Shown here in pieces: positions 5,768 to 30,243 of a stretch of 56,517 nucleotides of DNA. The notes under the pieces were generated by a model. The model ran no database searches, was not told the origin of the DNA, and saw only the letters and a program-made list of their open reading frames with translations. The stretch is taken from positions 1 to 56,517 of the forward strand of contig WOYS01000109.1 of NCBI GenBank assembly GCA_011620645.1. Direction: 5' to 3'. The position numbers and the translations under genes were made by a program. This DNA is from Mycobacterium sp. Its GTDB lineage: Bacteria > Actinomycetota > Actinomycetes > Mycobacteriales > Mycobacteriaceae. How positions within the stretch are numbered: position 1 is the stretch's first letter; each line of letters begins with the position of its first letter.

Positions 5768-6223
5768 ATGCACAAGGTTGTGGTCATCACCGGCGCCGGT
5801 AGCGGTATCGGCCGCGCGACGGCCCGGGTTCTGCTCGACGCCGGACATCAGGTCGTGCTGGCAGGCCGGCGGCCGGAGCCGCTGGCCGGGCAGCTGCCGC
5901 GCGGCGGCCGGATCATCAACAACGGGTCATTGGCCGCACACCGACCGCGCCCGAGCAGCCTGGCCTACGTGGTCACCAAACATGCGATCAGCGGGCTGAC
6001 GGCATCGCTGGTGCTCGATCTGCGCGACCTCGACATCTGCGTGACGCAGATCGACATCGGCAACGCGGCCACCGAGATGACCAGCGGCTTCACCGCCGAG
6101 CCGACCTTCGACGTCAAGCATGTGGCGCAGACCATCGCCGATATCGTGGACCTCCCGCTGGAGGTGTCCGTCCCGACCCTGACCGTGATGGCGCGGGCCA
6201 TGCCCTACTCCGGCCGCGGCTGA
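5768..6223 (+). pseudogene. Short-chain dehydrogenase/reductase with internal deletion
   Basis: The 151-codon frame is open, but it holds only the two ends of a normal SDR of about 230-250 residues. It begins with the Rossmann NAD(P) motif ([10 protein letters not shown]) and the strand-2 region ([11 protein letters not shown]). It then jumps at about residue 45 straight to GRIINNGS, with the catalytic serine region, followed by YVVTK, the YxxxK catalytic pair, and a normal C-terminus. About 85-95 residues carrying the cofactor-binding NNAG strand and central helices are absent. The loss is in frame, so a short protein could be made but is unlikely to fold. Its stop is 1 nt before the hyi start, indicating a former operon. 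Confidence 0.82.
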
Positions 6224-6224
6224 T

Positions 6225-6781
6225 ATGGCATTCGTCGTCAACTGCTCGATGCTGTTGACCGATGTGCCGCTGCTGCAGCGTCCGCAGGCGGCTCGTGACG
6301 CGGGCTTTGACGCGGTCGAGTTCTGGTGGCCCTTCGACGACGCGATCCCCGGAGACACCGAAGTCGATGCCTTCATCGCGGCAGTCGAAGATGCCGGAGT
6401 CCGGCTCACCGCGCTCAATTTCGTCGGCGGCGACATGGCCGCAGGGGAGCGCGGGTTGCTGTCGGATCCCGGCCGGCGACAGGAGTTCCGGGACAACGCC
6501 GAGGTCGCGTTCGGCATCGGGGACCGGCTGGGCACCAAGGCGTTCAACGCGCTTTACGGCAACCGGCTCACCGGCCTGGACCCGCAGGCACAGGACGATG
6601 TGGCGACCGAGAACCTCGAGCACGTCGGTCAGCTGGCCGAACGCAGCGGCGTGATCATCCTGATCGAGCCGCTCAGCGGTGTCGACGCCTATCCGTTGCG
6701 GACGGCCGCGGAGTGATCTCCGTGATCGACCGGGTGGGGGCGACGTCGCTGCGTCTGCTGGCCAGTGTCGCTGCGGGGTGA
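6225..6781 (+). pseudogene. hyi: Hydroxypyruvate isomerase-like TIM-barrel gene, frameshifted and truncated
   Basis: The first 163 codons match a hydroxypyruvate isomerase/xylose-isomerase-like TIM barrel: NCSMLLTDVPLLQRP at the start, GFDAVEFWWPF, LTALNFVGGDMAAGERG and IEPLSGVDAYPLRTAAE. At about 6715 the frame hits TGA. Moving one frame over restores the family sequence VISVIDRVGA...LRLLA, so one base has been lost. That second frame stops at 6779-6781 after LLASVAAG, where the family normally continues (LYHL...) for about 80-90 residues. The gene is therefore dead twice over. Such isomerases accompany SDR/tartronate-semialdehyde reductase genes in glyoxylate pathways, consistent with its SDR neighbour. 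Confidence 0.85.
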
Positions 6782-7770: not shown

Positions 7771-9510
7771 TCAGTACACATCGCGCACGTACCGCTTCTC
7801 CCGCTTCAGCGAGTTGACGTATTCCACCGCCCCGTCCGCGTCCAGCCCGCCGTGGGCGGCGACGATATCGTGCAACGCCTTGTCGACATCCTTGGCCATC
7901 CGGGTCGCGTCACCGCACACGTAGAAGTGGCCGCCCTCCTGCAGCCAGCCGAACAGCTCCTTGCCGTGTTCCAGCATCCGCGTCTGCACGTAGATCTTCT
8001 CGGCCTGATCGCGAGAGAACGCCAGCTCCAGGCGATTCAGCAGCCCGGAGTTCTGCCATGCCGTGATCTCCTCGGAGTAGACGAAGTCGTGCTCGCGGTG
8101 CTGATCACCGAAGAACAACCAGTTGGGCCCCTTGGCCTCCCGATGCGAACGTTCCTGCAGGAACGCACGAAACGGTGCCACCCCGGTGCCGGGGCCGATC
8201 ATGATCATCGGCGCGCTGTCGTCGGCAGGCACCCGGAACGATTTGTTGGGCTGCAGGAAGATCTTCGCCGTGGTGCCCCGGTCGGCCAGGAATGTCGAGC
8301 ACACCCCACCGCGCAGGCGACCGCTCTTGCGGTACCGCACGCTGGCCACGGTCAGGTGGATCCGGTCCGGATGTGCCAAGGGGCTCGACGATATCGAATA
8401 TGCCCGGTGTGCAAGCGGTCTGAGCAAGCTGACGAACTCCTCGACGCTCAGGCCATCACCCGCGATCCGCAGGATATCCAGGATGTCCTTGCCGTACAGC
8501 CAGCGCTCCAGCGTCTCCTTCACGCCCCCGCGCAGCACATGGGAGAACTCCTCGTTCTCCGCGCGCTTTTCCACCTCACCGAGCAGATCCTTGGACGGTG
8601 CGCTGATCTCGTAGCGATGTGACAGCAACTCGCCGAGCGGTTCGCCGTCGACCAGCGTGTCGGGGGACACCCGGAAGTGCTCGGCGATCGCCTCGACCAC
8701 CTCCGGGTTGTTCTCCGGGATGACGGCCAGCGCGTCGCCCGCGTCGTACTCGATGCCGCTGTCGGCCAACGCGAACTCGTAGTGCCGGATCTCCTTGTCC
8801 GAGCCGGGGCCGGAAAGCAGTTTGTTGACCACCAATTCGGCGAGGAACGGGTTCTTGCGCGTCCATCCCGAGCGGGCGACGGCACTCGGTGGTGGTGTGC
8901 TGGGGACGCCACTGGCGCCCGACGTCGGCACCAGCGCGGAGAGTGCGCCCTGGATCCACTCGGCCGCTTCGGACTCGTAGTCGACATCGCAGTCGGTGCG
9001 GGCCAACACCCGCGATGCCCCGAGTTGCTCGAGGCGGGTGTCGAACAGCTTGCCGGCCTGGCAGAACCCGTCGTAGCTGGTGTCGCCCAGTGCCAGTACC
9101 CCGAAGGAGACGCCTTCCATCCGCGGTGCGACCGAGGATGACAGGGCCTCCCAGAACAATTCGGCGTTGTCGGGCATCTCGCCCTCGCCGTAGGTGGAGG
9201 TGACGATCAGGACGTACTTGAGGCCGGCGAACTCCTCGAGCTCGATCTCGTCGAGTCCACTGACCGTGACGTCGAAGCCTTGGCCCTTGGCTGCGGCGGC
9301 GGCGTCGTTGGCGACACCCTCGGCATTACCGGTCTGCGTGCCGTAGAGGATGCGCAACGACGGGCGCGGCGCCGACTGGTCGGCGGCGACCGGGGGCGGC
9401 GGGGCGACATTCATCGCCAGTCGCGAGTGCAATCCGGCGAGGAAGCCGGAAAGCCAGGCGCGCTGGTCCTCGTTGAACGGGGCGTCCTGGGGGATGTAGG
9501 CGATTTTCAT
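7771..9510 (-). CDS. CysJ-type NADPH diflavin reductase (FMN/FAD)
   Basis: A 579-residue diflavin reductase that carries NADPH electrons through FAD to FMN. After an N-terminal helix (PFNEDQRAWLSGFLAGL) the flavodoxin domain spans about residues 52-200 (LRILYGTQTGNAEG, TSTYGEGEMPDN, LALGDTSYDGFC). The FAD domain spans about 215-430 (RAYSISSSP; GRLRGGVCSTFL) and the NADPH domain about 435-579 (MIGPGTGVAPFRAF, YVCGDATRMAKDV), ending in the aromatic YVRDVY tail. Length matches the CysJ alpha subunit of sulfite reductase. No CysI hemoprotein gene is in the window. Instead its ATG overlaps the stop of the glutamate-synthase-like gene (ATGA), so an electron-donor role to that protein is the natural inference. 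Confidence 0.92.
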   Translation of the reverse strand: MKIAYIPQDAPFNEDQRAWLSGFLAGLHSRLAMNVAPPPPVAADQSAPRPSLRILYGTQTGNAEGVANDAAAAAKGQGFDVTVSGLDEIELEEFAGLKYVLIVTSTYGEGEMPDNAELFWEALSSSVAPRMEGVSFGVLALGDTSYDGFCQAGKLFDTRLEQLGASRVLARTDCDVDYESEAAEWIQGALSALVPTSGASGVPSTPPPSAVARSGWTRKNPFLAELVVNKLLSGPGSDKEIRHYEFALADSGIEYDAGDALAVIPENNPEVVEAIAEHFRVSPDTLVDGEPLGELLSHRYEISAPSKDLLGEVEKRAENEEFSHVLRGGVKETLERWLYGKDILDILRIAGDGLSVEEFVSLLRPLAHRAYSISSSPLAHPDRIHLTVASVRYRKSGRLRGGVCSTFLADRGTTAKIFLQPNKSFRVPADDSAPMIMIGPGTGVAPFRAFLQERSHREAKGPNWLFFGDQHREHDFVYSEEITAWQNSGLLNRLELAFSRDQAEKIYVQTRMLEHGKELFGWLQEGGHFYVCGDATRMAKDVDKALHDIVAAHGGLDADGAVEYVNSLKREKRYVRDVY

Positions 9511-12500
9511 GGCGTGGTCTCCAGGGCGGTGAGCGATGCGACGACGTCCGGAACCGACTGCGCGGCAAAGAGTTCTTCGAATGAGGGCAGGCGACCGATG
9601 CGCTCGACGTTCTTGGCGCTCTGGTACAGGATCCAGCCGTACGTGCCGGGGCTGTCCATCGACAGCACATTGCGCTGGGTCAGCGCGTCCTTGTAGTCGG
9701 TGATTCGTTTGTTGGCGATGAACACCGCCAAGTCTTCGTCGCTGAACCCGTCGACGGCCGCGCGGGCATATTTCTGCAGCTTCTGGATGAGGAAGAAGTC
9801 CTCGGTGAGCACCAGATTGCGCACCGTCTTGCCGACCTGCGGGTCGGCGACATCGGCGACCCCCTTGAGCCGCGAGAGCGCAAGTTGCTGAGCGAGATTG
9901 AGCACTGTGTAGGTGTTGAGCAGCGTATACATCTCTTCGGTGTCGGTATCGCCGTAGCCGGGCACCGCGCCGCCGAGCACCGTCACGTTGTCGCGGTAGG
10001 ACTGCTTGAATTTATGCACCTGATATCCGGCGAGCGCGGCGGTGAGCTCGTCGAGCAATTCTTTGCGAGTCTTCGCCGCCAGGATCGCGTCGGCATCCTG
10101 GTATTGCAACAGCGCCCGAGGCATCACGTAGGTGACGTGCAGGCGGGTCTGCTCCCAGGCTTCCAGCAGAGCAGCCGCTTTGGCGGAACCGGTCGCCTCG
10201 GCGTGCCATTCCAGCAGGGTGCGCGCTGCCACCTCGTGGAACGGCGACTCGGCCAAGGGTGCGATGACCACCGAGTCGGCACTGACCTTCGATGCCAGTT
10301 CGCCTGCCGGGTCGTACTGATAGAGGAAGCCGCCGCTCATCCCGTTGGCAACACCCTTGCCGAACCCGCCGATGTTGAACACCGCACCGTTCGTCATGTA
10401 CTCGCAGAGGAAGTCGCCGACACCCTCGACCACGGCGGTGGAGCCCGAGTTGCGCACCGCGAACCGGTCTCCGGCCTCGCCGGCAACGAACAGCCGACCG
10501 CCGGATGCGCCGAACAGCGCGAAGTTGCCGATCAGTACGTTCCCGCCGGGCTGGTCGGAGCCGCCGCCGGGGGTGCACACGGCGATGGAGCCGCCGCAGG
10601 CACTCTTGCCGACACCGTCATTGCAGGTTCCGGTGTGTGTCAGTGTCATTCCGTCGTTGCAGAACGCGCCATAACTCTGCCCCGCGGAGCCGGTGGTGTT
10701 GATGAGGACGCTGTCCGGCTTCAGGTAACGACGCCCGCGGTGATCGGTCGCCACGGCCGCACCGTCGGCGGGCCCGTCTGTTGCGGGGTGGTTGAGCATC
10801 CGTTCGATGTCGATGGCCAGCTGACCGCCGACGCTCTTGTTGCCGTTGCTCAACTCGACCGGCGCCATCGTGACACCGTCGAGGTCGAGCTGGGTCAGGA
10901 ACGCGTCGTCGACGGCGTAGTCCTTCTCCATGTAGATCGGATCGTCGGGCACGAACCCTTCCGCGGGGGCCAGCATGGCGCGCAGATCGAGTCGGCCGAT
11001 GCTCGACGGGTGATCCAACAGGTGCAGCAGATCGCTGCGTCCGCGGGCGTGCCGCAGGGACGGCAGTCCCAGCGTCGCCAGGATCTCGCGGACCTCGTGG
11101 GAGATGTTCAACAGATACTGGGCCAGTGCGCGTGGATCGCCCTCGAAGGCTTCGGCGTTGGTGGTCAGGCCGGCCGGGCATTTGATATTGCAGTTCTTGG
11201 CCATGACGCACTTGAGCATCATCAGCGCGGTGGTGCCGAATTCGAAGCTGTCGGCGCCCAGCAGCGCGGACTTGATCACGTCGCTGGCGGTCTGGTGCGC
11301 ACCCGAACATCGCAACACGACCTTCTGGCGGATGCCGTTGTCCACCAACGCCTGATGTACCTCGGCGACGCCGATCTCGGCCGAGCGGCCCGCGTACTTG
11401 AGGCTGGTGACCGCGGCGGCGCCCGTGCCGCCGGTGTTGCCCGCGACGTTGATGACGTCGGCGCCTGCTTTGGCCACGCCCGCGGCGATGATGCCGATGC
11501 CCTCCGAGGACACCAGTTTGACGATCACCCGGACCCGCGCGGCCTTGCAGTCGTGGATCAGCTGAGCCAGATCCTCGATCGAGTAGGTGTCGTGGTGTGG
11601 CGGAGGTGACACCAGCTCGACTCCCGGCGTGCCGCCGCGGGCCGCGGCGATCTGCACTGTGACCTTCGGCGCCGGAAGCTGGCCACCTTCACCGGGTTTC
11701 GCGCCCTGGCCGATCTTGATCTCCAGCTCACGCAGCATCGGGTCGGCCAGGTAGCCCGCCCACACACCGAACCGGCCCGAGGCGAACTGCTTGATCCGCG
11801 AGCCACGGATGGTCCCGTAGCGCGTGATGTGCTCACCGCCCTCACCGCAGTTCGACAGGCCGCCCACCATGTTGGTGCCGTGCGCGACAGCCTCGTGGGC
11901 CGGCGCCACCAGCGCGCCGTGGCTCATCGCGCCCGACGTCAGCGTCGCGGCGATCTCGTCGGCCTGCTGCACCGATCCCAGCGGAATCGAAGCGGGCGCG
12001 GCCCGCACCATGGTCAGGTAGTCCAGCGCCGCACCGCAGGCGCGCACCCACAGCCGGTCGCCGATGACGTCGGAGTCGATGATGTCGGTGCCGAAGCGGA
12101 GGACCAGTGACTCGGCGAGCGCGTCCAGTCGCTGTGCGCTGTGCGCCAGCCTCAGCGTGAACTCGTCACCCACCTGATCGCACGTCAACCCGCGCACCAC
12201 ATAACTGTTGTTGCCGAACGCCGCGAATTGGCTCATCTGGGAAGTGAACTCGTCGGCGGTGTGCACGAAGTTGACATCGGCGGGCAACGCGAGCACGTCG
12301 CGCAGTGCCGCCGGCCGGCGGGTGCGCTCGGCGTTCATGGCGAACACGAAGTTGCGGTATCCAGGCGTGATGTCGAAGCTGTTGATGGCCCGCGGTGTCA
12401 TCTCGTCGAAGCTGTTGTGCCGGTAGGCCTCATCATTGAGCCCGAACGCACCTTCCAGCTGGTGCAGGGGCAGCACTTTCAGGAACTCTGGGTCGGCCAT

Positions 12501-14960
12501 GTCCGGGTTGTCCGGTCGCGCCTCGTCACCGAAGGAGATGGATTCCTCGGTCATGTCCACGAATCCGCGCACGGCCGTTGTTCCGTATGAGTGCCCGGCG
12601 CCCTCGGCGCGCTCCTTGAACAGACCGAGCAGCGGCACATCCTTCTCGCCGCTGATCGCCAAGGCACGGTTGTGCCACTCGGCGACGGTGTCGGCGAGTG
12701 TGGTGAACCCGACGCCGCCTACCGGGGACGCGACGTTGGGGAAGTAGCGGCGCAACACCGGCTCACCGGTGTCGAGGTAGCTGGGTTCGAAGAACTCACC
12801 GCTGATATAACTCTCGACGGTGCACAGCCCGACCCGGCCCATCGTCTTCATCAACGACTTCTCGGCCGCCTTAGCGAAACGTTTGAAGGCAGTGGAGATC
12901 TGATCGTCACCTGGGCCGAACTTCTCCTCGGCGCGCATCTGCACACCCAGCGGATAGACCGCGGACGCGCCGAAGCCGAGTACGGTCGCAATGTGGTGCG
13001 AGGACACCAGCTGCCCACTCTCGGCGATCACCGAAACCCGTCGGCGCAGTCCCTCCTCGATGAGGCGCTGGTTGATCGCCGACATGACAATGGTGAGAGG
13101 CATTGCCGCCAGCTCACTTTCGACGTGGCGGTCGGAGATGACGGCGATGCCGCCCGACTCCCGCGCATAGGCCTCGACCTCGTCGCACAGGGCATCGATG
13201 CCGCGCACCAGGGCCTCGGCATTGGCCTGACGATCGGTCAGGTCGATCCGGTAGCGCATCCCGAAGCGTCGGACCGGCGTCATCTGCTGATCGCGGATCT
13301 TCAGCATGTCCAGGTGGGTCAGGATCGGTGAGGGCACCACGATCTGCGGGGCCGGCGTTGCGCCACTGTTCGGTTTGGCGCCGAGCGCGACGCGCAACGT
13401 CATGCCGTCGGCCTCCCGGATGCTGTCCAGCGGGGGGTTGGTGACCTGGGCGAAGCGCTGCGAGAAGTACCGCGCAATACCGCCCTCGTGGTTGGACAGT
13501 GCGTTGATCGCCGCGCCGTACCCCATCGCCGAGATCTTCTCCTGCCCGGTGGCCAGCATCGGATCCATCAGGAACTTGAAGGTCTCCTGGTTCATCGAGT
13601 ACGCGACATAGCGCTGGTAACGGTTCAGATCGCCGTTGTAGCGGGCGGGGGACAGCTGGCTTTCCGGTGGCACCGCGGGGAGATCGGCGAGGTTGACCCG
13701 CGCCTCGTCGAGCATCGCCAGGTAATCATGTTTGGCGGCAAGCTTTTCCAGTGCCTCGGTGGTGCTGTAGGACCGCTGTTCGCGGTGGTCGTAGTAGAGC
13801 ATGCCGCCGGCCTTGATGCGGCCGCGCTTGGTCACCTCCTCGGGTGGGAAGTAGACCTGGCCGGCCTCGGACATCACGCCGAGGTACTCGGCGGTCTCGA
13901 CGGTGCGCAGCGGTCGCAGCCCGAGGCGGTCCAGGCGGGCACCGATGTAGGTGCCGTCGCCGAAGATCAGTGCGGCGGGACCGTCGTTCTTCTCCTCGTA
14001 GAGGCTGAAGAACTCCAGCATCGCCCGGACCTGGGGCGAGAGCGTCGCGTCGTTCTCCCAGGCCGGTGGCATCATCGCGACGACGGCGGTGACCAGGTCC
14101 AGTTCGTCTTCCAGCACCCGGTTCTGCAGCGTCTGGTCCAGCCGGCAGCTGTCGGACTGGCCCTTCGGCCGCACGATGTCGCGGTTGCGGGCGCGGGCGA
14201 TCGCGTTGTCGGACAGGCGGTTCTTCTTGTCGGTGTTGAGTTCGCCGTTGTGTGCCATCAACCGGAACGGTTGCGCCATGGTGGCATTGGGCGCGGTGTT
14301 GGTGGAGAACCGGGTGTGGAAGAACATCGAGTGCACTTCCATCCGCGGGTCGGACAGATCGCTGAAGTAGGGGACGACCTCGTTCGAGTTGAGTCGCCCC
14401 TTCAACACCTGGGTGCGGGCGCTGACCGACAGCGGGTACAGGCCGGCCAGCTGGGGGTTGGTGTACGCGACGGCCTCGATGGCCATCAGCGCGTCGTGAA
14501 TCCCACGATCGGAGAGGATGCCCGATTCGGCCGAGAACACCCATTGGCGGATCGGCAGCTGATATTTGACGGCCGCCGGGCGGATCGTTGTATTGTCCAC
14601 CGGGACGTCACGTTTGACGAGGATGTTGAGGCCGTGCGCACGCAGGGTGTTCTCGATCACATCTTCGGCGTCGGCGTGGAATGCGGGGTCGTTGGGCAGG
14701 AAGAAGTTGCCCACTCCGAACTGGCCGAGCGCAAGATCGGGGCGCCCGGTGAGCTCGCGGAAGAACCGCAGGGACAGGTCAAGGTTGACGCCCGCGCCGT
14801 CGCCGACGCCTTCGGAGGACATGCCGCCGCGGTGCGGGACCGCGCACAGCGCCTCGTGGAGCTTGCGGATCACCTCATGGGTCTGGAGGCCATCCTTGCG
14901 GGTCAGGAGGCCGACGCCGCAGCTGCTCTTCTCCTGGTCCGGATCATGAAGTCCCGACAA
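9507..14960 (-). CDS. gltB: Glutamate synthase large-subunit-like protein with long C-terminal extension
   Basis: A 1817-residue GltB-like protein, longer than the usual 1480-1530. The class-II amidotransferase domain (about residues 14-420) has the nucleophile Cys14 (SSCGVGLL), HTRFSTNT and AHNGELNT. The central domain follows. The FMN synthase domain carries KPGEGGQLP, SPPPHHDTYSIEDL and GNTGGTGAAAVTSLKYAG, then an iron-sulfur motif Cys1251-x5-Cys1257-x3-Cys1261. A GxGxG beta-helix lies at about 1450-1550 (NIGGFGKGVANGMSGG). About 200 or more extra residues end the protein. The TTG start has GAGGAG 8 nt upstream. There is no gltD; a diflavin reductase overlaps the 3' end. It should make glutamate from glutamine and 2-oxoglutarate, but specificity is inferred. 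Confidence 0.9.
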   Translation of the reverse strand: MSGLHDPDQEKSSCGVGLLTRKDGLQTHEVIRKLHEALCAVPHRGGMSSEGVGDGAGVNLDLSLRFFRELTGRPDLALGQFGVGNFFLPNDPAFHADAEDVIENTLRAHGLNILVKRDVPVDNTTIRPAAVKYQLPIRQWVFSAESGILSDRGIHDALMAIEAVAYTNPQLAGLYPLSVSARTQVLKGRLNSNEVVPYFSDLSDPRMEVHSMFFHTRFSTNTAPNATMAQPFRLMAHNGELNTDKKNRLSDNAIARARNRDIVRPKGQSDSCRLDQTLQNRVLEDELDLVTAVVAMMPPAWENDATLSPQVRAMLEFFSLYEEKNDGPAALIFGDGTYIGARLDRLGLRPLRTVETAEYLGVMSEAGQVYFPPEEVTKRGRIKAGGMLYYDHREQRSYSTTEALEKLAAKHDYLAMLDEARVNLADLPAVPPESQLSPARYNGDLNRYQRYVAYSMNQETFKFLMDPMLATGQEKISAMGYGAAINALSNHEGGIARYFSQRFAQVTNPPLDSIREADGMTLRVALGAKPNSGATPAPQIVVPSPILTHLDMLKIRDQQMTPVRRFGMRYRIDLTDRQANAEALVRGIDALCDEVEAYARESGGIAVISDRHVESELAAMPLTIVMSAINQRLIEEGLRRRVSVIAESGQLVSSHHIATVLGFGASAVYPLGVQMRAEEKFGPGDDQISTAFKRFAKAAEKSLMKTMGRVGLCTVESYISGEFFEPSYLDTGEPVLRRYFPNVASPVGGVGFTTLADTVAEWHNRALAISGEKDVPLLGLFKERAEGAGHSYGTTAVRGFVDMTEESISFGDEARPDNPDMADPEFLKVLPLHQLEGAFGLNDEAYRHNSFDEMTPRAINSFDITPGYRNFVFAMNAERTRRPAALRDVLALPADVNFVHTADEFTSQMSQFAAFGNNSYVVRGLTCDQVGDEFTLRLAHSAQRLDALAESLVLRFGTDIIDSDVIGDRLWVRACGAALDYLTMVRAAPASIPLGSVQQADEIAATLTSGAMSHGALVAPAHEAVAHGTNMVGGLSNCGEGGEHITRYGTIRGSRIKQFASGRFGVWAGYLADPMLRELEIKIGQGAKPGEGGQLPAPKVTVQIAAARGGTPGVELVSPPPHHDTYSIEDLAQLIHDCKAARVRVIVKLVSSEGIGIIAAGVAKAGADVINVAGNTGGTGAAAVTSLKYAGRSAEIGVAEVHQALVDNGIRQKVVLRCSGAHQTASDVIKSALLGADSFEFGTTALMMLKCVMAKNCNIKCPAGLTTNAEAFEGDPRALAQYLLNISHEVREILATLGLPSLRHARGRSDLLHLLDHPSSIGRLDLRAMLAPAEGFVPDDPIYMEKDYAVDDAFLTQLDLDGVTMAPVELSNGNKSVGGQLAIDIERMLNHPATDGPADGAAVATDHRGRRYLKPDSVLINTTGSAGQSYGAFCNDGMTLTHTGTCNDGVGKSACGGSIAVCTPGGGSDQPGGNVLIGNFALFGASGGRLFVAGEAGDRFAVRNSGSTAVVEGVGDFLCEYMTNGAVFNIGGFGKGVANGMSGGFLYQYDPAGELASKVSADSVVIAPLAESPFHEVAARTLLEWHAEATGSAKAAALLEAWEQTRLHVTYVMPRALLQYQDADAILAAKTRKELLDELTAALAGYQVHKFKQSYRDNVTVLGGAVPGYGDTDTEEMYTLLNTYTVLNLAQQLALSRLKGVADVADPQVGKTVRNLVLTEDFFLIQKLQKYARAAVDGFSDEDLAVFIANKRITDYKDALTQRNVLSMDSPGTYGWILYQSAKNVERIGRLPSFEELFAAQSVPDVVASLTALETTP

Positions 14961-15226
14961 CGGGCGATCTCCTCAACGCTGCAGTGCACACATCGCACCG
15001 CATGGTCTCTCGACTCTGAGTGATCCCGCTCGGCCCATGCGGATACCGCAGGCTCCGGTGCTCACCAGCAGCCTAGCCGAGCCTAGCCTATAGCCCAACG
15101 ATGGTGGGTGCGGCCTGCGCGCCGAGGGCGATCGGCACCCTTGGGGTCAGGGCGTCAGCGAGAGCGCCTCGCTGTTGAACCCGTCGGTGAGCCCGGCGAC
15201 GGCCGGGCACATGGTGATGGCGTGAC
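14961..15226. other. Intergenic region upstream of the gltB-like gene
   Basis: The gap between kup and the gltB-like gene must contain the gltB promoter (minus strand). It includes an imperfect direct repeat of GAGCCTAGCC around 15069-15092. Short peptides can be read in it on both strands, but I recognise no gene. No terminator hairpin was identified. Confidence 0.5.
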
Positions 15227-19994: not shown

Positions 19995-21488
19995 TCAGGG
20001 CTGCGCCGATGTCAGAACGACCGGTGCGGGCGCAACTTCCGGTTCGGCCGCCTCGACAGGTGCGGCGGGCCGCGAGGTGAGCGCGGCGAGCACCACATAG
20101 GCGATCAGAGACGCGGCACCGGCCAGCAGCGTGCTCCAGCCGTCGGCCGCGGTCGTCACCCAGTCGTTCGGCACGTACAGCAGGGTGTTGTCCACGCCGT
20201 AGATGGTCGGGGTGAGCACGAAGAACGTCATGCGCACCCCGATGCCGACCACGATGGCGGCCCCGGCCGCGGCAGCGCCACCGCGCGACCAGTACAGCCC
20301 GAGGATGAACGGCACCACCAGGCTGGCCAGCAGCAGGTCGAAGGACAGGGTCAGCAGGATGCCGGTCTGCGGAACCCGCAGTGCGACCACGCCCGCCAGC
20401 AACGCCATCGGCAGCGTCGCCCACCGGGTGGCGCGCAGCACCCGCGGTGTCATCACCGGTGCGTCCGCATCGATGCGTAACACGTTGCGCACCAGCACCG
20501 CCGCAGTGGCGAGCAGGATGCCGCTGACGGTGGTGAGGGTCGCCGCGAGCAGGCCCGAGATGACGATGATGGCCAACCACACGGGGGCGTACTGAGCGAG
20601 CAGGGTGTAGAGGATCGGTCCGTCGGCTGCGGCGTCCCCGACGATGCTCACCGCGGCCAGCGCGACGAACGACAGCGGGATGCACAGCATCAGGATGCCG
20701 GCTGCGGCGGCGAAGCAGGCGTTCTGGGCCCCGCGGGCAGTCCGGGCGGAGAACACCCGCTGCATCAGGTCGATGGCGACCAGGTTGCCCAGGCCCAGCG
20801 CAATGATGGTGGCCCAGTTGATGACCGCGCCGGATTCACTGGAGGTGAGCTGCGCCAGATCGCCGGCGCCCATGCCTTCGGGCGCGCTGAAACCGTGCGT
20901 GGCGGCAACCCAGATCACCAGGGAGACAACACCGATGATGTTGACGATCACACACGTGACACCGGTGTAGACGCTGGCGAACATGCCGCCGGTGATGGTG
21001 TACAGCAGCGCCAACGGCAGGGTCAGCAGGATCCCGTAGGCGTAGGAGACACCGACGAAACGCTCGAGCAGGAAGCCGATCGCGACCAGGTTGCCGGCCA
21101 GCAGGATGATGAAGCTGGCGATGGTCAGATACGACGAGGCGACCTCGGTGGCACGGCCGAACCTGTTACGGAAGTACTCCGGCAGTGTGACGACGTCGGC
21201 CGTCCGCATGCGTTCGGCGAAGAAGAGCCCCATCAGTAGCAGGCACAGGGCCAACCCGATGGGCAGCGCCGCACCCGCCCAGAAGCCGAAAGCCGCTGAC
21301 AGGTCGGCATTGCCGATGGTGGCGTTGGAGTCGACGGGTTGGGCGATGAGGACCGCGGCGACCAGTGCGGCGGGTAGGGCGCGCCCCGCGACCAGATAGT
21401 TCGAACAGTCTCCACGCACTCGTCGCGCAGAGACCACACCGCTGACGGTGAGAATGAGGAGGAATACGGCAACGCCGGTGATGATCAT
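19995..21488 (-). CDS. Sodium:solute symporter (SSS family)
   Basis: A 497-residue permease with about 13 hydrophobic segments and SSS-family features: the N-terminal NYLVAGRALP region, SNATIGNADLSAAFGFWAGA, PEYFRNRFGRAT and WATIIALGLGNLVAIDLMQRVFSARTARGAQ. The start MIITGVAVF has GGAG 7 nt upstream. It closes the urea/guanidine cluster, 90 nt downstream of the oxygenase gene. SSS members transport urea, amino acids, proline and other solutes; here the context suggests urea, guanidine or a guanidino compound, which is inference only. Confidence 0.9.
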   Translation of the reverse strand: MIITGVAVFLLILTVSGVVSARRVRGDCSNYLVAGRALPAALVAAVLIAQPVDSNATIGNADLSAAFGFWAGAALPIGLALCLLLMGLFFAERMRTADVVTLPEYFRNRFGRATEVASSYLTIASFIILLAGNLVAIGFLLERFVGVSYAYGILLTLPLALLYTITGGMFASVYTGVTCVIVNIIGVVSLVIWVAATHGFSAPEGMGAGDLAQLTSSESGAVINWATIIALGLGNLVAIDLMQRVFSARTARGAQNACFAAAAGILMLCIPLSFVALAAVSIVGDAAADGPILYTLLAQYAPVWLAIIVISGLLAATLTTVSGILLATAAVLVRNVLRIDADAPVMTPRVLRATRWATLPMALLAGVVALRVPQTGILLTLSFDLLLASLVVPFILGLYWSRGGAAAAGAAIVVGIGVRMTFFVLTPTIYGVDNTLLYVPNDWVTTAADGWSTLLAGAASLIAYVVLAALTSRPAAPVEAAEPEVAPAPVVLTSAQP

Positions 21489-21577
21489 GGCGGAACTCCA
21501 AAGGGGAGTGCGGGTGGGAGAGTTCGGCATCTTTGCCGGAGGGGCGAGAGACTGCAGCCGCATCGCTGCGGTGGAGA

Positions 21578-22606
21578 TCAGTTATTTGCGAGGACCTTTC
21601 GGCCGAATGTCGCGAGCGGATGGGCGCCCTCGGGCAGAGTCACCTCCCCACGGGCGAGGCGGCCCTGCAGATAACGGAAGCTCTGCGCGGTCTTCGCGAA
21701 GAGGTGCTCACCCGCGACCACCGGTGATCTGACCGGACCGCCATTGCCGGCGAACGCGGGCAGTGGAGCGACCTCGGTGTCGTGGTCGACATTGACGAAC
21801 AGCGGAAACGAATAGCGCTCCTGGGCCACCTTGCGCACCCGATGAGTGGTGGCCACGAACTCACCATTGGTCCAGATCTCCAGCAGATCACCGATGTTCA
21901 ACACGAACGCATCATCGATGAGCGGCACGTCGACCCATGTTCCGGCGGCGTTGAGCACCTCCAGGCCGGGTGCGGTCGGCCGCAGCAGGGTGAAGCACTC
22001 GTAATCGGTGTGCGCGCCGATACCGGGCCGGTTCGCGGCGGCCGGATCGTAGGGGTAGTGAATCAGCCGCAGCTGAGATGGCGGGGCGCTGACATGACGG
22101 TCGAAGCGGTCCGCCGGCTCGCCGAGCGCCACCGCGAACGCCCGAAGCAGGGTGCGGGACAACGCGAAAACCGATTCGTACCAGTCCGTGACGGTGTCCC
22201 GGAACCCCGGCAGTGCCGGCCACTGATTGGGGCCGAGCAGCGGGTGCCCGGCCAGGTAGCGAGGGTCGTCGGCGGGCAGATCGATGGCCAGGTCGAAGGC
22301 CTCTTTGGCATCGACGGTCCCGGCGGAGAAGATCTCCTCCCCGGGTGGCACGTAACCGCGGTGATTGGTGGAGTTGGCGATGTGTACCCGTAGCTTGTCC
22401 TCGTCGGGCAGGGCGAAGAACGCCTTGGTGCGCTCCAGCAGGGCGTCGAAAAGTGTGGGATCCACACCGTGGCCGATGATCTGGGCGAAGCCCACCTGCC
22501 GGGCAGCCTCGCCCAGTGCGCGTACGGCGTCGGGATAGCGTGGCCCGGAGTCGTCGAGCAGAGCCGAGATGTCCAGCACCGGAACGTCGGTGAAGTCGGT
22601 CGTCAT
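21578..22606 (-). CDS. 2-oxoglutarate/Fe(II) dioxygenase, isopenicillin-N-synthase-like
   Basis: A 342-residue member of the isopenicillin N synthase-like 2-oxoglutarate oxygenases. The N-terminal DIOX_N region (VPVLDISALLDD, GFAQIIGHGV) precedes a jelly-roll core with the iron triad His199-x-Asp201 (GAHTDYE) and His255 (ATTHRV). The 2-oxoglutarate contact Arg264-x-Ser266 (ERYSFPLF) is present. All catalytic residues are present. It sits 8 nt after the allophanate hydrolase gene. Some relatives hydroxylate guanidino substrates such as homoarginine or arginine and release guanidine; given the downstream guanidine/urea enzymes that is an attractive but unproven role. Confidence 0.9.
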   Translation of the reverse strand: MTTDFTDVPVLDISALLDDSGPRYPDAVRALGEAARQVGFAQIIGHGVDPTLFDALLERTKAFFALPDEDKLRVHIANSTNHRGYVPPGEEIFSAGTVDAKEAFDLAIDLPADDPRYLAGHPLLGPNQWPALPGFRDTVTDWYESVFALSRTLLRAFAVALGEPADRFDRHVSAPPSQLRLIHYPYDPAAANRPGIGAHTDYECFTLLRPTAPGLEVLNAAGTWVDVPLIDDAFVLNIGDLLEIWTNGEFVATTHRVRKVAQERYSFPLFVNVDHDTEVAPLPAFAGNGGPVRSPVVAGEHLFAKTAQSFRYLQGRLARGEVTLPEGAHPLATFGRKVLANN

Positions 22607-22614
22607 CAGCAGTC

Positions 22615-25088
22615 CTAAAGGGCCAGTAGGTGATCGGAGCGATCCCGGGCGACCGTCCAGCGCCGTCGGGTGGGTTCACCCGCCGGGGACCGTTCGGCGA
22701 CGGTGATCTCACCGTTGCCCAGGTCGGGTGCCAGGTCGTCACCGGTCCGGAACGGCAGCGTGGAGCGGGTGATCAGCCAGCGGTCGCCGTCGATGGCACC
22801 CAGGGAGATCTCCAGGTCCACCAGCGCACGTGCCGCCGCCAGATCCGCTCCTGCCACCGCATCGCGCAATGCGGTGCCCGGTGCGGGTGCAACGCCGGCG
22901 GCCCGGCCACGGACATACCCGAAGCGGTCCCCGACCCGCAGCAGCATGCCGAAGCGCCCGGTGCCGTCGCGCAGCGTGAGTTCGGTCGCTTCGGCGGCGC
23001 CGGGGCCGGCGACCCAGTCCTCGTAATAGTCGCGCCCGACGCCGTTTTCGATGAGGATGCCGTCGGCCAGGTGTAGCCGGCCCCGATCGGGAAGCGGTTG
23101 CGCGGGATGCAGATCCACGTCGCGCCACCATGTCCATTGGTCACCAGCGGCGGCCAGCCGTCCGGCGAAGCCCTGCTGCGCGCACAGCGCGACCAGGTCA
23201 TCGCGGGTGAGCTCGTCCAGCGAGGTACCCGTGATCGGCGGCATGTCGGCGGGCGTCCGCAGATCGATGTAGAGCTCGCCGGCCTGCAACCATTCGACCT
23301 CGGTCGTGTTGTCCACGCAGGTGCCGGGCACGGCCAGGGCGACCCGGTGCCAGCTGCGATGGCTGAGATCGGCCCGGGCGGCAGCGGTCCCGCCGCCCAC
23401 CCGGCGCAGATAGCCCGGCCAGTCGCCGTGGTGGGTGATGTCCTGCCCGGACTCCCATGCCTCGGTGGTGCACCCGAACCCGACCACCTCGGTGCCGTCG
23501 GCGAGGGTGGCCCGGCCCAGCGACATCGGGGCCGGCAGGGCGGCCAGGAAATCGCCGAGCATCGCGGTACCGATCAGCCACAGCTCGCCGTAGATGGCCG
23601 CGCCGTCGCCGGGGGCGACGCGTGCCAGGCCGGGTTTCGGGGGGTCGGTGTCCAGCCGGGCCAGCCGGTACTGCGGTGCGGTGTGCACCGGTCCACACCA
23701 CCGGGCGCCACGGTCGTCGAGCTGCCAGGCCAGCGGCTGACCGCGCAGATGCGCGCCGACCACCAGCAGCGTGGTGGTGTCGAGACCGGCTCGCGCGGGC
23801 CAGGGCGCTGCTTCTGCCGGGGACTCCGTGACCAGCCGCGCGATGTCCAGCGCCAGGGCGTCCGCGCCGGCGCGGGCCAGCACGCTGACACCGAATTGTG
23901 CACCGTGGGAACCGGTTCCGCTTGGCACCGCGACCGCACACAGGTCCATCAGGTTGCAGAAGTTGGTGTAGGTGCCCAGGCGGGAGTTGACCCCGACCGG
24001 ATCGGCGGCGACCTCGGCGAGCGTCGGGTGCTCGGTGGTGGTGGGCACCAGCAGGGCATGGCAGTCGGCGAGTGTGTTCATCGCCGCGGCCGTCAGCTCC
24101 GACAGCCGGGCCCGGTCGGCCAGCAGCCGGGTCGCCGGTACCACACCGGCGGCAGCGATGATCGCCGCCACGGTGGGGTCCAGATCCTCCGCGCCCCGAT
24201 GAGCGTCGACGAAGGCGCCGGCCGCCTCGTGCCGTTCGGCGACCAGCCCGCCGTCGTAGAGCAGCCGGGCGGCCTCCAGGAACGGGTCCAGGTCGATCTC
24301 GACCAGTTCGATGTCGACGCCGAAGGTGTTGGAAACCAGGCGTTCAGCGGCGACGCGAAAAGCTTGTGCCCATTCCGGTGACAGCCCGGGCAGGGTGCGG
24401 GGCACCGCGACCCTGGTCTTGGGTGGCGCGGCCAGCGGCGCGTCGGGCGGGAAGGTGCGCGCGCCACCGGCGATGACACCCATGGCGGCGTCGGCGCTGT
24501 CCAGGTCGCGGGCGAAGACCGCCACGCAGTCGTAGGACCGGCAGGCCGGCACCACCCCGTCGACGGGCACCACCCCGAGGGTCGGCTTGATCCCGACGAT
24601 GCCCTGCAGGGCGGCAGGCACCCGGCCCGAGCCCGCGGTGTCGGTGCCCAGGGCGATGTCGACCAGACCCAGAGCGACGGCCACCGCCGAGCCGGAACTG
24701 GAACCCCCCGAGATGTATTCGGGCCGGTGGGCGTCGCGCACCGCGCCGTGCGGGCTGCGGGTGCCGACCAGTCCGGTGGCGAACTGGTCGAGGTTGGTCA
24801 CCCCGATGATGACCGCGCCCGCGGCCCGCAACCGGGCTACCACGGGTGCATCGGCGTCCGCCGGGCCCTCGGCGAAGCTGGGGCAGCCCGCGGTGGTGGC
24901 GATCCCGGCGACGTCGATGTTGTTCTTCACCGCCGCGACCATGCCGGCCAGCGGCAGCGGCGGATCGTGGCGGTCGACATGCTCGGCATCGGACAGCGCA
25001 TCGGCCAACGGCCGCAACATGATCCAGATCTCCGGACGGTCGGCCGCCTCGATGGCGGCATACGCGGCGCGGACGCGCTCGACTGCCT

Positions 25089-25092
<4 letters not shown>
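22615..25092 (-). CDS. Allophanate hydrolase with extra C-terminal domain
   Basis: An 825-residue enzyme that splits allophanate to ammonia and CO2. The amidase-signature domain (residues 1 to about 450) has Lys56 (VKNNID), Ser131 (SGGSSSGS) and Ser155 (DTAGSGR) of the Ser-cisSer-Lys triad. The allophanate-hydrolase C-terminal domain follows at about 460-600 (LLVVGAHLRGQPLAWQL, AIYGELWLI). A further about 220 residues (HRSWHRVALAVPG, WLQAGELYIDLRTP, GVGRDYYEDWVAGP) are not part of the usual enzyme of about 600 residues and look like a beta-rich lipocalin-like domain. The ATG overlaps the stop of the carboxylase gene (ATGA). Confidence 0.9.
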
Positions 25093-28699
<3,607 letters not shown>

Positions 28700-28703
<4 letters not shown>

Positions 28704-29383
28704 GTGGCAACCTCCGTGCCATTTCCCGTCGCTTCGCTCGCCCCGTTCCGGGTGACGATCATCCGGACCGGGGTGGGGTCGAATGCGTTGCAGGGGTTGT
28801 TGATCTGTGGGCAGTTCGACACCAGGACCAGCGTGCCGATGTCGGCGCGCAACGCGACGCGCTTGCCGGGGGCGGACAGTCCGTCGACGATGCCGAGCGC
28901 ACCGTCGGGGTCCACCGGCACGTTCATGAACCAGTTGATATTGCTCGCGAGATCTCGGGCGCCGAGGCCGTGCCGGGATCCCTCGAGCAGGAAGTTCTCC
29001 AGGCAGCCGTGCTGGGCGCGGGTGTGCTGGCCGTAACGCAGCGTGTTGGATTCCTTGGAGCAGGCGCCGCCCAGGGTGTCGTGCACGCCGACCTCGTCGG
29101 CGACGACGGTCATCAGCGCGTCTCCGGTGTCGGCCCGCAGCACCGAACCGGTGGTCAGCGTGATGCGGCCCTGGCGGCGAATCGTCTCCGGCGCCGAATA
29201 CCGCACACCGGTGTCGGCGGCGGCGTACAGCAGGCAGTCGACGGCCTGATTGCCGGCGAGGTCGACGATGGTCAGCACATCGCCGGCGGCCACGACGGCC
29301 GACCAGGCGGCGCGTGCCTCGACGAACTCGTCGAGCACGACCGCGCCCTCGATCAGGGCGGGCACAACCGAACTGGTGATCAC
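28700..29383 (-). CDS. Urea-carboxylase-associated protein 1 (DUF1989; carboxyguanidine deiminase subunit)
   Basis: A 227-residue DUF1989 protein. Family-typical stretches are LAGNQAVDCLLYAAAD, GACSKESNTLRYG and NINWFMNVPVDPDG, together with NCPQINNPCNAFDPTP near the C-terminus, which supplies conserved cysteines. In characterised systems the pair of DUF1989 proteins forms carboxyguanidine deiminase, converting carboxyguanidine to allophanate and ammonia. The last about 12 residues (ASEATGNGTEVAT) are encoded partly by a short dispersed repeat also found in nuoL. Start and stop overlap the neighbouring genes by ATGA. Confidence 0.88.
28721..28742. repeat. Dispersed 22-bp repeat, copy inside the UAAP1 gene
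   Basis: On the minus strand the copy reads GGCGAGCGAAGCGAC then GGGAAAT and encodes ASEATGN near the C-terminus of UAAP1. The nuoL copy differs at one base. Partial relatives are in nuoF and at the nuoG-nuoH junction. Confidence 0.75.
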
Positions 29384-30243
29384 AGCTGTCCCCTTGCGGT
29401 GAGATCGGCATCGGTGTTGGCGACGGCTTGGCGGTGTTCGGGTCCCAACGGCCCCAACAGGTCTCCGTTCACGAGCCGGTCGAGGTCGTGGGATGCGGGC
29501 CAGGCGTGCAACAGCAGCGGGGAGCAGGTGTACTCCGGCCGCGGGTCCAGGGGGTGGGCCGTGTTGGCGATCAGCACGATGGCGTCGACGTGCAGCAGCA
29601 GATCCACATGCGTTGCGGGACCGGCCGACCCGCGCCAGGTGAAGGTGCCGTCATCCTCGACGCGCACACCCTGGAAGAACGACACCGAAGGCGGCAGGTC
29701 GCGGCGGTCGAGTCCGTGCTTGAGGGCGGCCAGGGTGAACAGTTCGCGCCCTGCGGGGGAGGGCGATTCGGGTGCTGCCGCGCCATACCGTTCCAGATTG
29801 CCTGCGCGAGTGGAGGTTCCCGTCAGTGCATCGTGTGCGCCGGAGGTGTCCGAGACGATGGTGGCCAGGGCCCGGCCGAAGCCGCTGAGCAGCGGATGGC
29901 CGTTGCCGAGGTAGGCCTGCCATGGGACTTTGACGGTGTCGGCGACATTGAGTCGCTCGTGGGGGGCGTCGGCGCGGTGCAGCAGCAGGTGTGCGCACGC
30001 GTCACCGATCGGGTCGGTCAACCTCAACCGGGTCCCTCGGGCCAATACGGCGCTGGAATAGCCGCCCGGCGCAACGGTTTCGGACCACGTCAGCTTTTCG
30101 GCGGCGAGCGCCGAGGGCGCTGTCGGGGATGTCGACGCCGGGATGTGGCGCATGAATTCCGCGGTGCGCCCGTGCTGGGCGCGAGCGTGCGCCTTGGCCC
30201 CTGCCGTGGTGGCGGTGTCGGATTCGGTGCCGGTGTTGCTCAC
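29380..30243 (-). CDS. Urea-carboxylase-associated protein 2 (DUF1989; carboxyguanidine deiminase subunit)
   Basis: A 287-residue DUF1989 protein, first gene of the cluster. Diagnostic stretches are ETVAPGGYSSAVLARGTRLRL, GDACAHLLLHRADAP, ERLNVADTVKVPWQAYLGNG, LSGFGRALATIVSDTSG and the RDLPPSVSFFQGVRV motif. It is the partner of the downstream UAAP1 in carboxyguanidine deiminase. The GTG start has GAGGG about 6 nt upstream. The 5' leader contains two AmtR-type boxes and a 20-bp palindrome, so control of the whole cluster is likely exerted here. Confidence 0.88.
   Translation of the reverse strand: MSNTGTESDTATTAGAKAHARAQHGRTAEFMRHIPASTSPTAPSALAAEKLTWSETVAPGGYSSAVLARGTRLRLTDPIGDACAHLLLHRADAPHERLNVADTVKVPWQAYLGNGHPLLSGFGRALATIVSDTSGAHDALTGTSTRAGNLERYGAAAPESPSPAGRELFTLAALKHGLDRRDLPPSVSFFQGVRVEDDGTFTWRGSAGPATHVDLLLHVDAIVLIANTAHPLDPRPEYTCSPLLLHAWPASHDLDRLVNGDLLGPLGPEHRQAVANTDADLTARGQL

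Follow-up and report, generated by a model that had tools for sequence, protein, structure and literature searches.

Which protein supplies the electrons for a glutamate synthase (GOGAT) large subunit that is encoded next to a sulfite reductase-type flavoprotein and not next to GltD? The question is raised by two genes on a 56,517-bp stretch of DNA from Mycobacterium sp. (contig WOYS01000109.1), analysed over its whole length and called the window in the following. GOGAT is one half of a main bacterial ammonia-fixing route. The first-pass annotation of the window had proposed a two-protein enzyme, either a GOGAT of undescribed type or an amidotransferase with another product. Adjacency and co-occurrence of the two genes and their exchange with gltBD support a two-protein GOGAT run by a diflavin reductase, and we regard it as highly probable that the pair encodes an NADPH-dependent glutamate synthase in which this reductase takes the place of GltD.

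The open reading frame list of the window places both genes on the minus strand at the positions given here, and all features of the pair lie on that strand. The first gene (9507..14960; ORF and Pfam) codes for a GltB-like glutamate synthase large subunit of 1817 aa with a TTG start; a probable ribosome-binding site, GAGGAG (14969..14974), was read from the sequence 8 bases before the TTG. Pfam assigned the domains in the order of GltB: a class II glutamine amidotransferase domain (GATase_2, residues 14-413; 13722..14921), the glutamate synthase central domain (Glu_syn_central, residues 450-725; 12786..13613), the FMN / 2-oxoglutarate synthase domain (Glu_synthase, residues 988-1298; 11067..11999, also supported by alignments) and the GXGXG beta-helix domain (residues 1405-1570; 10251..10748). 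Cys14 would be expected to act as nucleophile once a propeptide of 13 residues has been cleaved off. Alignment revealed an iron-sulfur motif C-x5-C-x3-C (Cys1251, Cys1257 and Cys1261; 11178..11210) and two family-specific parts, a stretch of 188 residues between the central and FMN domains (residues 794-981; 12018..12581) and a C-terminal extension absent from E. coli GltB (about residues 1617-1817; 9510..10112); a Pfam family was found in neither part. The stop codon TGA of the first gene and the start codon ATG of the second share the four bases ATGA (9507..9510). The second gene (7771..9510; ORF, Pfam, NCBIfam and PDB) codes for a CysJ-type diflavin reductase of 579 aa with an ATG start, the proposed dedicated NADPH donor. 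Pfam recognized its flavodoxin (FMN) domain (Flavodoxin_1, residues 54-181; 8968..9351), FAD-binding domain (FAD_binding_1, residues 218-407; 8290..8859) and NADPH-binding domain (NAD_binding_1, residues 437-543; 7882..8202). The complete GltB-like protein with Cys14, FMN domain and cluster cysteines, the overlapping stop and start codons and the three reductase domains were thus present as the first-pass annotation had described them.

A pattern scan of the contigs of 84,980 species yielded 335 stretches encoding some relative, of which the best 80 were kept. Over nearly the whole length, the large subunits of these best 80 of 335 shared 63-89 % identity with that of the window; together with five plasmid loci and the window they formed a set of 86 members for the residue comparison. 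The window protein itself is a distant relative of E. coli GltB, with 36 % identity over the aligned residues, and scored 1026.7 bits with the NCBIfam GltB equivalog NF008730, just below the cut-off of 1047. The nearest solved structures were GltB proteins (7mfm, 6s6s, 1llw, 1ea0 and 2vdc). Between the two matched stretches lie 188 residues in the window protein versus 36 in 6s6s, and about 200 residues are extra at the C terminus compared with E. coli GltB; the pair's large subunit, including both additions, is about 330 aa longer than the E. coli protein. The cysteine nucleophile and the glutaminase Arg, Asn and Asp were kept in 86/86 members of the alignment, as were the three cluster cysteines and the counterparts of Synechocystis Q969, K972, Q978, R992, S1011, E903 and E1013, located through the 1EA0 and 1llw alignments. 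We take the first six of these to be 2-oxoglutarate-site residues and E1013 to be the coupling glutamate. The spacing of the cluster cysteines departs from the canonical motif: all 86 members have C-x5-C-x3-C, whereas E. coli GltB and 1EA0 have C-x5-C-x4-C. Also in all 86, a serine replaces an aspartate of E. coli GltB in one loop of the FMN domain, presumably the FMN-binding loop, and GEGGEH stands in place of the E. coli GEGGED (His for Asp). Given these three fixed differences, the chemistry could differ in detail. Judged by architecture and residues, the large subunit would be a GOGAT, without a GltD partner and with a changed cluster motif.

The carriers of the best 80 loci belonged to the Mycobacteriales, Rhizobiales, Rhodobacterales, Methylobacillus, Lampropedia, SAR92/Porticoccaceae and Erwiniaceae. 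Loci at 81-89 % identity bore the names Mycolicibacterium, Mycobacterium, Mycobacteroides and Nocardia, plus one actinobacterial metagenome bin, and the window's genome resembles that of a Mycolicibacterium; one of the 80, in a record named Enterobacter ludwigii, falls in the Pantoea agglomerans genus (G274). In 80/80 of these loci (best 80 of 335) the large-subunit gene was immediately followed by the reductase gene in the same orientation. The adjacency of gltB-like and cysJ-like genes, which the first-pass annotation had wanted examined across genomes, therefore extends far beyond close relatives, and chance neighbourhood was ruled out by the same count. Large overlaps of the two genes in some loci were an effect of choosing the most upstream start. 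A fused form was likewise sought among the 80 loci, and all had separate reading frames. The distance matrices of GltB and reductase were strongly correlated over 81 pairs (r = 0.945); none of 2000 permutations reached this value, the maximum being 0.099. The pair was also present on plasmids of Shinella, Ketogulonicigenium, Tsukamurella and Neorhizobium. There the large subunit bears the label 'glutamate synthase-related protein' or gltB, and the reductase that of a sulfite reductase alpha subunit or cysJ. Nine plasmid records had a large subunit of at least 60 % identity, and the same nine headed the list for the reductase. Membership of the pair in a larger conserved cluster was considered and rejected: six of ten neighbours in the window matched the flanks of one relative (L043), with few matches elsewhere, namely one of the six also weakly in L058 and L064 and none in the others (80 loci, flanks up to 10 kb).

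The reductase has CysJ as its nearest relative in NCBIfam and PDB, the nearest solved structure being the CysJ chain 6efv. Its score with TIGR01931 (CysJ) was 613.5 bits, below the cut-off of 668, while that with PRK06214 ('sulfite reductase subunit alpha') was 458.8 bits, above the cut-off of 432. In a tree with ten other diflavin sequences, including CysJ and molybdopterin-fused modules, 81 GltB-linked reductases were monophyletic (support 0.954). Enterobacterial carriers possess a separate true CysJ scoring 889-924 bits versus 605-633 bits for the GltB-linked reductase; it was found beside the linked reductase in 20 of 21 of them, and in the 21st CysJ is in two split pieces. A service to sulfite reductase only, considered in the first-pass annotation as an objection to its proposal, does not agree with this coexistence. 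The possibility of an ordinary CysJ was discarded on account of the coexisting true CysJ, the separate clade and the absence of the linked reductase from genomes without a pair-type GltB. The GltB-linked reductase of one Agrobacterium genome (G051) was the only CysJ-type match there and could thus serve a second acceptor. In three mycobacterial loci the opposite strand encodes another diflavin reductase (about 49 % identity), some 3 kb upstream of the pair (L047:5143-6759, L048:5192-6808 and L054:5143-6759); two of these three additional reductases fall outside the GltB-linked clade. A further relative (49.8 % identity) is encoded on plasmid p2 of Paracoccus sp. TOH (L149:6914-8617), with no GltB annotated within 7 kb and with glutamine synthetase-like and aldehyde dehydrogenase genes nearby.

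In the window, gltD and cysI had been noted as absent. No match to Fer4_20 (GltD-type) was obtained on the window's contig (C22), and Pfam detected no sulfite-reductase domain in ten neighbouring proteins. The absence of gltD holds for the window and not for the genome, an assembly listed at 5.2 % contamination: three ordinary GltBs are encoded on other contigs (C31, C69 and C66), and on C31 and C69 a GltD-type protein is encoded downstream. The GltB on C66 (L136:3166-7755; 1529 aa) is on a contig without a GltD-type match; the two scanned reading frames adjoining it code for a hydrogenase-like small subunit and an AraC-type regulator. In the window's organism the pair may be an accessory, horizontally acquired GOGAT for some conditions, e.g., iron shortage, as flavins replace two 4Fe-4S clusters. 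This explanation is compatible with a diflavin-driven GOGAT and concerns its role; we consider it somewhat favoured. It is consistent with the three canonical GltBs, with the occurrence of members on plasmids, with neighbours that recur essentially in the 10-kb flanks of one relative, and with the lack of a full-length pair-type GltB in 24 other genomes of the genus (0/24; three of the 24 are only 70-84 % complete). Upstream of the pair the window holds, in a row (19995-30243), genes for a sodium:solute symporter, a 2OG-Fe(II) oxygenase, an allophanate hydrolase, a urea carboxylase and a DUF1989 protein, which looks like a nitrogen-salvage group. Nothing ties the urea carboxylase and allophanate hydrolase to the pair, and they had no match in the related loci (best 80 of 335, flanks up to 10 kb). 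Two short reading frames (5768-6223 and 6225-6716) were taken by eye to resemble a cut short-chain dehydrogenase and a cut hydroxypyruvate isomerase.

Of the 80 source genomes, 76 (all but L067, L077, L105 and L114) were examined for an ordinary GltB. It was present in 51/76, where the pair could consequently serve another end, and absent from 25/76. The latter were all 17 Erwiniaceae and eight metagenome-assembled genomes, for which the absence is weak evidence because of the mode of assembly. Two genus sets were studied, 61 genomes around P. agglomerans (L088) and 37 around Erwinia phyllosphaerae (L101). In the Pantoea set 51 genomes had the pair-type GltB only, nine the canonical GltB only, none both, and one, of 1.4 Mb, neither; in the Erwinia set the numbers were 26, 10, none and one. 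Over the 98 genomes the mutual exclusion has a p value of 2e-18 (Fisher's exact test, without correction for relatedness, the relatives not being independent). In the wider family of P. agglomerans, six of 198 genomes had the pair type, one of these (G158) both types, and 76 had no match at the threshold. The linked reductase (56-58 % identity) was present in the same 51 Pantoea-set genomes and in none of the other ten, always downstream of the pair-type GltB on the same strand (51/51). Three of the 51 GltB frames were short (1494, 1592 and 1752 aa), and one reductase (G336) matched only to residue 506. A GltD of the E. coli family, in a 475-aa frame, was found in 9/9 canonical Pantoea-set genomes, a stand-alone GltD in 0/51 pair-type genomes among the candidates scored, at most 21 per genome. 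In six of the 51 a GltD domain occurred only in a frame of 656-701 aa elsewhere in the genome, which we take to be AegA-like.

These gene contents support the reductase as partner of the large subunit. They bear on the proposal that the GltB-like protein is a GOGAT that receives its electrons from a ferredoxin, a flavodoxin or a GltD encoded elsewhere, while the reductase serves another acceptor, e.g., sulfite reductase. Such a division of labour would fit the closeness of the reductase to CysJ in PDB and NCBIfam, the GltD-type proteins on other contigs of the window's genome, the single CysJ-type match in Agrobacterium G051 and the use of ferredoxin electrons by Fd-GOGAT, as stated in an excerpt of PMC8097209. 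We consider it improbable, however, since the reductase follows the pair-type GltB in the 80 loci (best 80 of 335) and the 51 genomes, is missing from the ten Pantoea-set genomes without a pair-type GltB and stands beside a true CysJ in 20 of 21 enterobacterial carriers, with a split one in the other. The same set answers the objection, anticipated in the first-pass annotation, that a GltD elsewhere partners this GltB: among the candidates scored, at most 21 per genome, a stand-alone GltD was lacking in 51 of 51 genomes.

Exchange of the diflavin-linked pair with gltBD was also visible at the chromosomal site. In E. coli, gltBD follows arcB-yhcC, and sspBA lies further on. The left flank of the Erwiniaceae pair was rpoN-hpf-ptsN-rapZ-npr-mtgA-arcB in 17/17 loci and the right flank sspB-sspA-rpsI-rplM-zapE-yhcB-degQ-degS in 15/17; L096 and L097 are the two in which no right flank like that of E. 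coli was detected, and yhcC was not found beside the pair in the 17 loci. The same arcB immediately precedes gltBD in six canonical genomes, four from the Pantoea set and two from the Erwinia set. Five of them have sspBA next, in one case across a gap of some 5 kb; the contig of the sixth stops roughly 4 kb later. At the gltBD site G135 carries the pair. The simplest reading is that the pair replaced gltBD in place, within a genus, the direction of the exchange being inferred. In G158, the only genome of the 198 with both types, the pair is on a 20-kb stretch (L147) without neighbours of the gltBD site, perhaps an acquisition without displacement.

Physiological evidence comes from P. ananatis. 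According to excerpts of PMC12364357, strain AJ13355 has no close homologue of the E. coli GOGAT or GDH, its gltB (PAJ_RS19710) is 64 % identical to an Agrobacterium protein, and a knockout of gltB caused glutamate auxotrophy, which is credited to Hara et al. 2012; in these excerpts the reductase goes unmentioned. A second article, PMC9231021, does not mention gltB, gltD, GOGAT, glutamate synthase or glutamate dehydrogenase. At E <= 1e-90 only one GltB was detected in P. ananatis LMG 2665 (L092/G063); it is of the pair type and shares 68 % identity with five Agrobacterium members in a gap-free count, so that the inactivated PAJ_RS19710 very probably belongs to the pair-type GltB family. Glutamate dehydrogenase of the family PF00208, which does not cover the large GDH type, was absent from three of 20 pair-only enterobacterial genomes (G135, G184 and G273) and present in 17. 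The auxotrophy of the knockout and the pair-only genomes lacking PF00208 make glutamate synthesis by the pair very likely. On the question of another product, left undecided in the first-pass annotation, the exchange with gltBD at one site and the knockout auxotrophy reported in the excerpts favour a GOGAT. An amidotransferase with a different 2-oxoacid as acceptor in place of 2-oxoglutarate might be suspected from the low identity of 36 % to E. coli GltB, the fixed differences in the FMN domain and cluster loop and the ordinary GltB in 51 of 76 carriers, yet this is very improbable in view of the presumed 2-oxoglutarate-site residues and coupling glutamate in all 86 members, the swapping of pair and gltBD at one site and the reported glutamate requirement of the P. 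ananatis mutant.

A glutamate synthase of this composition resembles several known systems. With GltB-GltD it shares the four domains, the nucleophilic cysteine, the 2-oxoglutarate-site residues and the three cluster cysteines of the large subunit as well as the chromosomal site in Erwiniaceae, but the partner gene codes for a CysJ-type diflavin reductase and not for GltD, and the last cluster spacing is x3 and not x4 as in E. coli GltB. The Fd-GOGAT of Synechocystis and plants has a large subunit that is likewise fed by a separate low-potential redox protein; the proposed donor of the pair, in contrast, is an NADPH-linked diflavin protein of the same operon, and the extra Synechocystis residues between 914 and 933 have no counterpart in the window protein. 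Flavodoxin can replace ferredoxin as low-potential donor, according to an excerpt of PMC8097209. The diflavin reductase contains a flavodoxin domain and could therefore pass electrons from NADPH to the cluster in the way ferredoxin passes its own. The same logic of a diflavin protein feeding an iron-sulfur enzyme is known from CysJ-CysI, and the reductase is a CysJ homologue with the same domains; its score, however, stays under the CysJ equivalog cut-off, it has a clade to itself, and the proposed terminal enzyme is GltB and not the sirohaem protein CysI. The window's genome also encodes, on C120 (L131:1450-5649), a single reading frame in which molybdopterin oxidoreductase domains are combined with a flavodoxin-FAD-NADPH module and which may be a nitrate reductase with a built-in diflavin donor; one plasmid record with a diflavin module is annotated as bifunctional nitrate reductase/sulfite reductase flavoprotein. 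The diflavin unit is of the same kind in such fusions, but is joined to another enzyme in one frame and feeds a molybdenum enzyme, whereas the pair consists of separate proteins. The GOGAT forms named in the excerpt of PMC8097209 are the GltD type, the ferredoxin type, the fused eukaryotic and the archaeal split form, with no diflavin-driven one. We found no description of a diflavin-driven GOGAT in the literature searched, which left most subscription papers, patents and preprints outside.

For the proposed reaction, the large subunit would hydrolyse glutamine at Cys14, and the ammonia would pass to 2-oxoglutarate in the FMN domain, where reduced FMN would turn the imine into glutamate. The electrons would run from NADPH over FAD and the flavodoxin-type FMN of the reductase to the iron-sulfur cluster and on to the FMN of the large subunit; the path from FAD over FMN to the cluster, like the substrates and the docking, is inferred. 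A dedicated diflavin reductase, and not GltD with its FAD and two 4Fe-4S clusters, would thereby be the electron source. The two family-specific parts, one ahead of the FMN domain and one at the C terminus, are candidates for docking.

It is likely that the pair represents a further GOGAT class, next to those that depend on GltD or ferredoxin. It would combine a GltB variant, enlarged by two parts and with a changed cluster loop, with a CysJ-type reductase of its own; this two-gene unit would travel between phyla, would have displaced gltBD in place in much of Pantoea and Erwinia and would lower the number of iron-sulfur clusters from three to one. If this is true, genes now labelled 'glutamate synthase-related protein' and 'sulfite reductase subunit alpha' would together encode one core metabolic enzyme, and many Pantoea, among them an industrial host, would depend on the pair for assimilating ammonia. 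Iron cost and oxygen sensitivity of GOGAT could then differ between sister species, for which the exchange of gltBD and the pair at one site would offer a ready natural comparison.
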